From Rhizobium sullae (GTDB lineage Bacteria > Pseudomonadota > Alphaproteobacteria > Rhizobiales > Rhizobiaceae): DNA of 64,000 nucleotides. The position numbers were made by a program, and so were the translations under genes. The notes under the pieces are model-generated. The model searched no databases. It was not told the origin of the DNA and was given only the letters and a program-made list of their open reading frames with translations. Location of the stretch: positions 482 to 64,481 of the forward strand of contig NZ_FWER01000012.1 in the NCBI RefSeq assembly GCF_900169785.1. Direction: 5' to 3'. Below are positions 51,656 to 55,694 of this stretch, one piece after another; within the stretch, counting starts at the first letter, position 1, and the number at the start of each line of letters is the position of its first letter.

Positions 51656-51732
51656 TGGTCGGAGTGGAGTGATTCGAACACTCGACCCCCACGTCCCGAA
51701 CGTGGTGCGCTACCAGACTGCGCTACACTCCG
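51656..51732 (-). tRNA. tRNA-Pro (anticodon CGG)
   Basis: On the minus strand a 77-base cloverleaf runs from CGGAGTGTAGCGCAGTCTGG to ACCA. The acceptor stem is CGGAGTG/CACTCCG, the anticodon stem CCACG/CGTGG encloses TTCGGGA (anticodon CGG), and the T arm contains GTTCGAATC. CCA is encoded. The gap from cysN to the next gene (51519-52001) holds only this tRNA and the cys terminator. No integrase or duplicated tRNA end is visible. Confidence 0.95.
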
Positions 51733-52700: not shown

Positions 52701-52774
52701 TGGCTGGGGCGCCAGGATTCGAACCTGGGAATGCCGGTACCAAAAACCGGTGCCTTACCGCTTGGCGACGCCCC
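52701..52774 (-). tRNA. tRNA-Gln (anticodon TTG)
   Basis: The minus-strand cloverleaf of 74 bases starts GGGGCGTCGCCAAGCGGTAA and ends GCCA. The anticodon stem CCGGT/ACCGG encloses TTTTGGT (anticodon TTG), and the T arm is CCAGGTTCGAATCCTGG. CCA is encoded. The space on to the cupin gene (52775-52934) shows no gene. Confidence 0.95.
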
Positions 52775-52934
52775 ACCAGCTTGAGAGCGGAAACCCGCTT
52801 GCCGAAGCGAGGCCTGATTAGCAAAGGTCCGGCTGCCTCACAATCACTAACTTGCGCTTACGGCATATTTCTGTGCGCTTCTTCCGGCGCCGTGCTAGGT
52901 CTTGTCCCGCCCCGCCATAGTCTCAGGAGAGATG

Positions 52935-53234: not shown

Positions 53235-54167
53235 ATGCCGAGCCCGACATTCGATCTTGCCTTCGAGCCTCACTATGGCCGCGCGGTGGATGTGGCGCCG
53301 GGGGTCCAGCGCGTCACGGCCAACAATCCGAGCCCCTTCACCTTCCACGGCACGAACAGCTATATCCTCGGAACCTCGTCCGTCGCGGTCATCGATCCGG
53401 GGCCGGAGAACGAGGCGCATTTTGAGGCGCTGATTAAGGCGCTCAAGGGCCGGGCGGTCACGCATATTGTCATCACCCATACACATCGCGACCACTCGCC
53501 GCTTGCCGCACGGCTAAAGCGGGAGACCGGCGCCGTTACCGTCGGCGAAGGACCGCACAGGGCAGCGCGGCCGCTCCATGACGGCGAGGTGAATCCCTTT
53601 GCCGAAAGCTCCGATACGCATTTCGTGCCGGATATCGCAATCGGCGACGGCGAGACCATCGAGGAGGACGGCTGGGCGCTGACGGCGGTGCTGACACCCG
53701 GGCACGCCGCAAACCACGCGGCCTTTTCGCTCGACGGCACCGGCATCCTCTTTTCCGGCGACCACGTCATGGCCTGGGCGACGTCCATCGTGGCGCCGCC
53801 GGACGGTTCGATGGCCGACTACATGGCCTCGCTCGACAAACTGATTTCGCGCCGCGACCACCTGCTTTTCCCGGGCCATGGCGGGCCGGTGAAACGCCCC
53901 GTCTCCTTCATGCGGGCGCTGAAGACGCACCGCCGCATGCGCGAGCGCGCGGTGATGGAGCGCATCAAAGCCGGCGACCGGCTGGTTCCCGACATGGTGA
54001 GGGTGATCTACCGCGACACCGACCCAAGGCTGCACGGCGCGGCAGCACTCTCCGTCTTCGCGCATCTCGAGGACCTGGTGGAACGCGGGATCGTGCAGAC
54101 GGACGGACCGCCTTCGCTCTTCGGGGGGTATCAACTGGTGGCTGGGGCGGACGATGAACCGAAATGA
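53235..54167 (+). CDS. MBL-fold hydrolase, LACTB2-like
   Basis: This 310-residue metallo-beta-lactamase fold protein has the zinc motif VITHTHRDHSPLAARL (about residue 80), TPGHAANHAAF, LFSGDHVMAW and LLFPGHGGPVKRP. The C-terminal 60 residues (RVIYRDTDPRLHGAAALSVF; HLEDLVERGIV) form a winged helix as in human LACTB2, a ribonuclease-like subfamily. It follows the cupin gene by three bases and overlaps the start of the broken DUF393 gene by 14 bases, indicating a former three-gene operon. Confidence 0.87.
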   Translation: MPSPTFDLAFEPHYGRAVDVAPGVQRVTANNPSPFTFHGTNSYILGTSSVAVIDPGPENEAHFEALIKALKGRAVTHIVITHTHRDHSPLAARLKRETGAVTVGEGPHRAARPLHDGEVNPFAESSDTHFVPDIAIGDGETIEEDGWALTAVLTPGHAANHAAFSLDGTGILFSGDHVMAWATSIVAPPDGSMADYMASLDKLISRRDHLLFPGHGGPVKRPVSFMRALKTHRRMRERAVMERIKAGDRLVPDMVRVIYRDTDPRLHGAAALSVFAHLEDLVERGIVQTDGPPSLFGGYQLVAGADDEPK

Positions 54168-54776
54168 CTACAGCTATTGGCACGATGCGGCTGTTCCGGC
54201 CTTTCCGGACGACAAGCCGCTCATCATCTTCGACGGCGAATGCGTCTTCTGTTCCGGCGGGGTGAAAGTTGCGCTGAAGCATGACAGGCGCAACGCTACT
54301 GCTTCCTCGCTGCGCAATCAGCGCTCGGCGCAGCACTTTACCGCCACTACGACCTGGACGAGCGGGACTACGAGACGAACATCCTGATCGAAGACGGCCG
54401 CCCGCATTTCAAATCCGAGGGTTCGATCCGCTTAACATCTTCCCCGCCGTGAAGGACGAGGATTTTCAGGGGCGGCTTTAGGCCGCCCTTTCGAGTCCTC
54501 GGCTCCCGCGAGAAGTCTCCGACGCCGCCGATGGCCGTGTTCCAGCCAGGAGTATGTTGCCCGCCGCGTTGACGTCGGCGTGGTCTGCGCCAGGCTGCGG
54601 TTTGTCGTGCGCGGCTGGCGATTTTTCGGCATTCCCCTGCCTCTGGTGCTGGCGCCCGGCGGCGATACCTACGAGGAGGAGCGCGAAGGCCGGTCCATTT
54701 TCATGTGGAAGTCGGCGGACCCCTTACCGGGCTGATCGTGCGCTATGCCGGATGGCTGGAGAAAGAAGGCGGCTGA
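54154..54776 (+). pseudogene. Decayed DUF393 (DCC) / DUF4166 gene interrupted by IS debris
   Basis: The start encodes a DCC-family thiol-oxidoreductase N-terminus (KPLIIFDGECVFCSGGVKVA, with the DxxCxxC motif). Near 54292 the frame shifts; the next frame continues FLAAQSALGAALYRHYDLDE to GRPHFKSEGSIRL and then breaks at about 54431. After 170 bp of foreign sequence, homology resumes at about 54598 with the end of a DUF4166 domain (RFVVRGWRFFGIPLPLVLAP). There is another frameshift near 54693, after which HFHVEVGGPLTGLIVRYAGW ends at TGA 54774-54776. Such DUF393-DUF4166 fusions are my inference for the ancestral gene. It is clearly nonfunctional. Confidence 0.8.
54432..54600 (-). mobile_element. 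IS200/IS605-family remnant (tnpB 3-prime end)
   Basis: On the minus strand, 54600-54478 encodes about 40 residues including ADHADVNAAGNILLAGTRPS and ending at TAA. The DxNAAxNI pattern is the conserved C-terminal RuvC-III/zinc region of TnpB proteins. Just beyond the stop lies a hairpin, GGGCGGC (54470-54476) / GCCGCCC (54482-54488), like the subterminal palindromes of these elements. The 5-prime part of tnpB, tnpA and the other end are missing. It sits inside the broken DUF393/DUF4166 gene and probably caused its inactivation, followed by a deletion. Confidence 0.7.
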
Positions 54777-54785
54777 GGCCTGTTC

Positions 54786-55694
54786 TTACCCCGCGATGCC
54801 CAGCAGTTCCATATCGAGGGCTTCGAGATAGCGGTCGGCGATTTCGGCGCTGAGGCCGAGGTCGTGCTGGCCGTAGCGGGAGGCGACGCGGATGTCGACG
54901 AAGGTGGTTTCGGCTTCTTCGCGCAGCCGGATGACGACGTCGAAGTGCAGGCCGAGGATAAGCGTGCGGGCTTCACCCTGCAGCGTCACGCCGTTTGCGC
55001 TGCGGATGAGCTCTGCGACATCGTCCTCATAAGGCCGCGGCGTGGGAACGGGGACCTGATCGGGCGCTTCGGCGACAGCATTGCCATCAGGCGCTGGCCT
55101 TGCCGGCGCATCCTCGAGATCGCGGACCGGTTCGCCTTCGCCGGCACTTCTGGTGATCGTGATGCCATCCAGCTTCGCCACTTTCCTGACGGCTTCGAGC
55201 ACCCGGTCGATCGCGCCTTCATAACGCCGGCCAGTTAGTTCCGGATAGGCGGCAAGCTGCTGTTCGCGCTCTTGCGGCGTGACGTCGGGATTGCGCTTCA
55301 TCCAGATCTGATCGGCATGTGGCGGCGAAAGCCAGTCGGGCGCGGAAACGACGTCCGTCGACACGTCGTAGATCGCCGGCAGCGTGAAATAGCGCTCAGC
55401 GGCAAATCCGCCGAAGCCCAAGGGAAGGATCGCAAAGATCAGCGCTTTCAGCGCATCGAGGCCGGCTTCGGCTCCTCGCACCCAGAGGCTTCTGAGGCCG
55501 ACGGCCGCAAGCAGGGCGGCCAGCATGGCAAAGCCGATGGAAACGAGAAGCAGTAGCACGAGATAGGGCGTGGCGAGCCCGCCGAAGCGATGGGCGACGA
55601 GCACCGCGACCCAAAGGACGAACGCAAACGCCCCGAAGCGCCGCGCGAAGCGGGCCGAATTGGAAACGGGGCGGTCAAAGCGGATGGCCATCAA
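54786..55694 (-). CDS. DUF1499 family membrane-anchored protein
   Basis: The 302-residue product has three TM segments in the first 100 residues (FGAFAFVLWVAVLVAHRFGG; YLVLLLLVSIGFAMLAALLA; LDALKALIFAILPLGFGGFA). They are followed by a periplasmic DUF1499 domain from about 110 (IYDVSTDVVSAPDW onward; ASRYGQHDLGLSAEIADRYL). A Pro/Ala-rich insert (APARPAPDGNAVAEAPDQVP) splits the domain. Family function is unknown. Adjacent ATGs at 55694 and 55691 are both possible. It is convergent with the broken DUF393/DUF4166 gene. Confidence 0.82.
   Translation of the reverse strand: MMAIRFDRPVSNSARFARRFGAFAFVLWVAVLVAHRFGGLATPYLVLLLLVSIGFAMLAALLAAVGLRSLWVRGAEAGLDALKALIFAILPLGFGGFAAERYFTLPAIYDVSTDVVSAPDWLSPPHADQIWMKRNPDVTPQEREQQLAAYPELTGRRYEGAIDRVLEAVRKVAKLDGITITRSAGEGEPVRDLEDAPARPAPDGNAVAEAPDQVPVPTPRPYEDDVAELIRSANGVTLQGEARTLILGLHFDVVIRLREEAETTFVDIRVASRYGQHDLGLSAEIADRYLEALDMELLGIAG

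Follow-up and report, generated by a model that had tools for sequence, protein, structure and literature searches.

A decayed IS200/IS605-type right end with clear boundaries in the remains of two host genes of Rhizobium sullae

Results

The fossil and its boundaries

In the 64,000-nucleotide stretch of Rhizobium sullae DNA analysed here (the window, on contig C295 of genome G000), a cupin gene and an MBL gene are followed by the frameshifted remnants of host genes, and between these remnants the minus strand carries the final 158 nt of an element of IS200/IS605 type, as identified by DNA comparison with other copies (Table 1). Upstream of the cupin gene lie a minus-strand tRNA-Pro (CGG) at 51656-51732 and a minus-strand tRNA-Gln (TTG) at 52701-52775. 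The 158 nt match three other places in the same genome at 93-96% DNA identity, with E-values of 1e-60 or better, so the identity of the fossil is not a matter of chance. Its tnpB part translates to ADHADVNAAGNILLAGTRPSAASETSRGSRGLERAA before the stop codon, and 33 of these 36 residues are the same as at the C-terminal end of the TnpB-type protein encoded by the fullest copy, C154. The original prediction of a tnpB tail on the strand opposite to the dead host genes is therefore borne out, and the similarity to TnpB by which it could be judged is strong. Scanned by itself, the 39-residue fossil fragment matched no Pfam family; it was assigned to its family through DNA similarity with more complete copies, in which TnpB exceeds the Pfam cut-offs.

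A GGGCGGC/GCCGCCC hairpin had been proposed as the end of the element. The hairpin is present, but it is internal: the tnpB stop codon sits in its loop, and the element continues past it to terminate in GATGTTAA at 54432. The 20 nt of host DNA beside this terminus are identical to the sequence that follows TCAT at the uninterrupted site in two genomes of Rhizobium mongolense (L017 and L018).

Table 1. Features of the fossil and its surroundings, in window coordinates
Feature	Position	Strand	Basis
DCC1-like thiol-disulfide oxidoreductase, 5' remnant, frameshifted	54154..54431	+	Ortholog in L018; low-scoring PF04134 match; one base lost after 54285
Host DNA, 20 nt beside the right end; would be the guide if the right end were to yield a TnpB guide RNA	54412..54431	-	Identity to the uninterrupted site in L017 and L018; guide role by analogy (PMC8612924)
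TTAA right-end terminus; host flank from 54431	54432..54435	-	Common end of copies; R. mongolense homology stops
3'-terminal 158 nt of IS200/IS605-type element (C154 copy 1399-1555)	54432..54589	-	DNA match within the same genome
Right-end terminal hairpin, CCTCGTCC / CGGCGGGG, one mismatched pair at the loop	54442..54461	-	Reading and comparison of copies
Internal hairpin, GGGCGGC (54470-54476) / GCCGCCC (54482-54488)	54470..54488	-	Direct reading; helix 7 of the consensus fold
Final 36 tnpB codons and stop codon (54480-54478)	54478..54588	-	33/36 aa with C154
Deletion junction, GCG common to element and host gene	54587..54589	.	Window, copies and L018 side by side
Saccharopine-dehydrogenase/DUF4166 gene, 3' remnant, frameshifted	54590..54776	+	90% DNA identity to L018; 1-nt deletion after 54692

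The host genes

By the neighbouring MBL gene, the closest named relatives are R. mongolense, at 90-91% protein identity. In R. mongolense L018 the MBL gene is followed by two overlapping genes, one for a 150-aa DCC1-like protein (PF04134) and one for a 579-aa protein with saccharopine-dehydrogenase NADP-binding and DUF4166 domains. The remnants on either side of the fossil are 87-90% identical to L018 at the DNA level, which establishes the identities of the flanking genes; in the Pfam scan, the 77-aa DCC1-like frame of the window reached PF04134 with an E-value of 7e-4 and 21.2 bits, below the Pfam cut-off of 27.8, and the DUF4166 C-terminal remnant by itself had no matches. Compared with L018, single-base deletions follow positions 54148, 54285 and 54692. 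The fossil thus lies, as had been predicted, in dead sequence after the cupin-MBL pair, between a DCC start and a DUF4166 end and among several frameshifts; the assumption that these are the remains of a single gene does not hold, as L018 has two overlapping genes here and a deletion brought their remains together. The MBL gene itself (53235-54167) has its stop codon shifted by the deletion after 54148, so that its frame is 310 aa long against 307 aa in L018 and its altered C-terminus runs into the dead gene.

Host homology to L018 ends at 54431 (L018 position 4199) and picks up again at 54587 (L018 position 5877), and ~1,677 bp of host DNA is missing on the side of the lost element end. On the minus strand, both L017 and L018 have AATCAT followed by GCGGATCG without the 158-nt sequence, indicating that the element inserted 3' of TCAT, the same TCAT that stands at the left ends of other copies. 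Neither this comparison nor the one with TnpB speaks against the original identification. The proposal that an insertion destroyed the gene is accordingly half right: the insertion site can be seen, but insertion alone does not account for the lesion, since ~1.68 kb of host DNA is gone as well. In L017 (R. mongolense USDA 1844) a separate deletion of ~1.39 kb affects this pair of genes (L017 4199-4486 against L018 4199-5877) and no element is present, which shows that deletions in this region do not need the element and suggests that the DCC1-like and saccharopine-dehydrogenase/DUF4166 genes are dispensable in this clade. Among 80 relatives fetched by their MBL gene, with genes counted within the fetched flank, 34 have the DCC1-like gene, and the second gene is at least 95% covered in 13 and partial in 5; some of these loci end early, so that the absences are upper bounds.

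The second genome of the species, G164, whose matches share coordinates with the R. sullae WSM1592 plasmid record NZ_CP104144.1, is colinear with the window over 3,000 bp at 99.6% identity, fossil included. Over these 3,000 bp the two strains differ at 12 places, 2 of them inside the 158 nt (Fisher p = 0.13). The presence of the same fossil in the second strain indicates that the event predates the split of the two.

Fuller copies and the state of the family in this genome

The ends of the element were defined by comparing four copies from G000, namely C154, C204, C295b and C132. The fullest, C154, is 1,555 bp long. The left end, which starts with CGGAACC, follows TCAT in C154, C204 and C295b and TCGT in C132, C295b having lost sequence just inside it, and the right end terminates in GATGTTAA in C154, C204 and C295b. 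A Sinorhizobium plasmid (L113) matches the left flank of C154 up to GATCAT and then diverges, which independently supports the left boundary of C154; its right flank is not continuous with that Sinorhizobium sequence, and the right side must therefore have some other history. The left flank of the C154 copy (L097) adjoins sequence annotated as a RelE/ParE-family toxin gene on Sinorhizobium plasmid pK101b.

In C154, tnpB on the minus strand and tnpA on the plus strand are divergent. The frame of the TnpB-type protein stays open for 401 codons, 397 counted from the ATG, and the protein passes the Pfam cut-offs for PF07282, PF01385 and PF12323; residues 6-397 align to the solved ISDra2 TnpB (8h1j, E 2e-32). 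The aspartate-glutamate-aspartate positions, which we take to be catalytic, are kept in the alignment to the best PDB match. Read by eye, the two ends, CGGAACC... and ...GATGTTAA, do not form an inverted repeat, and near each of them there is GC-rich hairpin sequence, the folding analysis having covered the right one. Insertion is 3' of a fixed short target (TCAT; TCGT in C132). At the window, where the right flank alone survives for a check on target-site duplication, no TCAT follows the right end. As far as sequence goes, the element shares with the IS605 group a TnpB with RuvC and zinc-ribbon domains and subterminal hairpins in place of terminal inverted repeats. Among the paper titles listed in the literature searches, none was about this element in Rhizobium.

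It had been suggested that the hairpin could identify an IS that still moves in this genome. The fossil does not point to such an IS, because all five matches to PF01797 (Y1 TnpA) in G000 are incomplete; they lie at three places, C204 covering profile positions 2-75 and 93-119, C154 63-121, and C132 48-88 and 92-121, and the 158-nt fossil has none. From these gaps in profile coverage, the TnpA matches of G000 are presumably inactive. The search for copies within the genome did yield the three matches described above, but a full-length open TnpB of this subfamily is found in C154 only, that of C204 being frameshifted near its end and that of C295b keeping residues 242-397; as the assembly consists of 317 contigs, a collapsed or missing copy is possible. 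G138 carries a related subfamily in which 5 of 8 TnpA matches are complete, spanning positions 2-121, and relatives of the element may therefore still be mobile. A second tnpB subfamily occurs on G000 contigs C155, C282, C229 and C159 (L100-L103); its copies are 78-99% alike and lie no more than ~1.2 kb from a contig end, which suggests that the assembly broke at these repeats.

Right ends at other loci

A covariance-model search of 148 genomes of the genus (G000 included) gave matches in eight; the model needs the whole scaffold and so favours complete right ends, and in the DNA searches of the genus the best candidates, up to five per genome, were scored. Locus A is an independent case with the same anatomy as the window: R. 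sullae has the uninterrupted site, TCAT followed by ATCTCGCC, and four other genomes (G093, G101, G078 and G138) have the right end only. G075 carries a degenerate version, and G131, which is also without the element, has TCAG rather than TCAT at the aligned position. The right end at locus B is present in G101 and G138 and partly deleted in G078, and that at locus C is present in G078 and G138. At a plasmid locus it is present in three records (Rhizobium sp. 007, R. gallicum IE4872 and M101) and missing from three (R. gallicum R602sp, which keeps an inner piece only, and Rhizobium sp. CC1099 and R. etli 8C-3, which have deletions); a clean uninterrupted site was not found among the compared records. 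At locus B (L116 in G101; L128 in G138, reverse strand) the right end lies inside an insert of ~364 bp that is bounded by a short (~13-bp) target repeat and is absent from G093 and R. sullae.

Since the copies at loci A, B and C share flanks, they are orthologous and have not transposed, and a small mobile deletion derivative (MITE/PATE) was rejected for these loci. Preferential retention of right ends was rejected as well. Five right-end-only loci (the window, A, B, C and the plasmid locus) stand against one or two left-end-only loci (C132 with its G164 counterpart; C145, positions 47-128), giving p = 0.22 for 5:1 and p = 0.45 for 5:2, in a count that leaves aside short left-part matches (G101:C27, G093:C25, G138:C2 and G101:C6), left-part matches of the other subfamily, and the degraded right-end match of G075 at locus A.

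The right end folds with z = -2.2, as well as which 4 of 200 shuffles fold, and in a consensus fold of 10 sequences AACAT-CT pairs with AGATGTT. Pairs changed on both sides number 3 of 41 in these sequences, a count reached by 20 of 500 shuffles and made on a structure derived from the same alignment as was scored. As for known structured RNAs, the single Rfam match, HgcC, was rejected at 14.9 bits against a cut-off of 50. A promoter scan of 54400-54800 found none and is uninformative, shuffles also averaging 0.0.

Discussion

The feature in the window is an ordinary fossil of IS200/IS605 type whose boundaries are unusually clear. The family resembles ISDra2, the IS200/IS605 element of Deinococcus radiodurans, in having tnpA and tnpB, in inserting 3' of a short target motif, and in a right end that is continuous with the 3' end of tnpB. 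It differs in its target, which is TCAT here and TTGAT in ISDra2 (PMC8612924), and in its state, the window copy being a dead 158-nt right end in a genome in which a complete TnpA domain was not found. Unlike in the degraded IS605 copies of Halanaerobium hydrogeniformans (PMC7290912), decay is here accompanied by the loss of adjacent host genes, and several species share right-end-only copies at fixed sites.

We are highly confident that the locus is best explained by an insertion at TCAT in the DCC1-like gene, a later deletion joined at GCG, and decay as a pseudogene. An IS200/IS605-type element, presumably of full length, would have entered the minus strand 3' of TCAT in the DCC1-like gene of an ancestor of this Rhizobium species. 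A later deletion, probably a single one, would then have been joined at a 3-nt GCG microhomology, removing the left portion of the element (1,398 bp, assuming full length) together with ~1,677 bp of host DNA on the same side, and the 158-nt right end would have stayed on its original right flank as the locus decayed. A full-length element at this site was not seen in any of the relatives examined, so that the intermediate is not observed. The element-free deletion of L017 and the TCAG of G131 at locus A also count against this account. We consider it improbable that the element was instead truncated during insertion or repair, by a route in which, for example, the element would excise, TnpB would cut the site so emptied, the left flank would be resected, and copying from the sister chromosome would stop after 158 nt, to be followed by microhomology joining. 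Such a route would fit the right flank being intact to the base and the left side lost at both the window and locus A, as well as the excess of right-end-only loci, and repair of a break at the emptied site with the sister copy as template has been proposed (PMC8612924). However, the excess is well within chance, the uncounted short left-part matches would weaken it further, and an ordinary deletion accounts for the junction equally well.

A second rival reading is that the 158 nt have been kept as a solo omega RNA that directs the C154 TnpB against intact DCC1-like alleles. If so, the window copy would cut intact TCAT-bearing DCC1-like alleles arriving from related strains, and the broken allele would thereby be protected. 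In ISDra2, the RNA bound by TnpB is ~150 nt long, comes from the 3' end of tnpB and the right end, and finishes with ~16 nt of flank (PMC8612924), and the structure has an RNA scaffold of 116 nt with a pseudoknot near its 3' end (PMC10097598). The fossil is about as long, it keeps the AACAT-CT/AGATGTT pairing at its 3' end, which is comparable to that pseudoknot, its flank is identical to the sequence beside TCAT in L017 and L018, and right-end-only copies are common to several species at other loci. Several observations nevertheless make this reading very improbable, and retention of the right end as a solo guide RNA under selection is unlikely from the sequences compared. The right ends at the three shared loci diverge 1.8-3.1 times faster than either 300-bp flank (right end against left and right flanks: 0.098 against 0.053 and 0.032 at A, 0.102 against 0.040 and 0.043 at B, 0.073 against 0.027 and 0.027 at C); these figures pool non-independent pairs (six at A, a single one at B and at C) and part of the flanking sequence is coding, and they therefore exclude strong constraint but do not prove neutrality. 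As the fastest-changing part of their loci, the right ends behave as expected of fossils, which argues against retention as guide RNAs. The partial deletion at locus B in G078, the degenerate copy at locus A in G075, and the even split between presence and absence at the plasmid locus point the same way. In the key helix, six of the seven pairs show no variation and coincide with coding sequence, and the helix therefore offers no evidence of covariation. Finally, a guide-like site, differing at no more than 5 positions from the 20 nt that adjoin the right end, occurs in 28 of the 80 relatives, but TCAT precedes it in just two of the 28 (L017 and L018) and CCAT in 18; at least the match in L089, where no DCC1-like gene is shown, is probably due to chance.

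The value of this fossil is mostly clean bookkeeping. It demonstrates that comparison between species can locate a decayed IS200/IS605 right end to the base, and it marks a region that was hit by two different deletions in close relatives, one in the species of the window and one in R. mongolense USDA 1844. On a small scale it also tests, with a negative result, whether solo TnpB right ends are retained as guide RNAs: those at three shared sites change faster than their surroundings.
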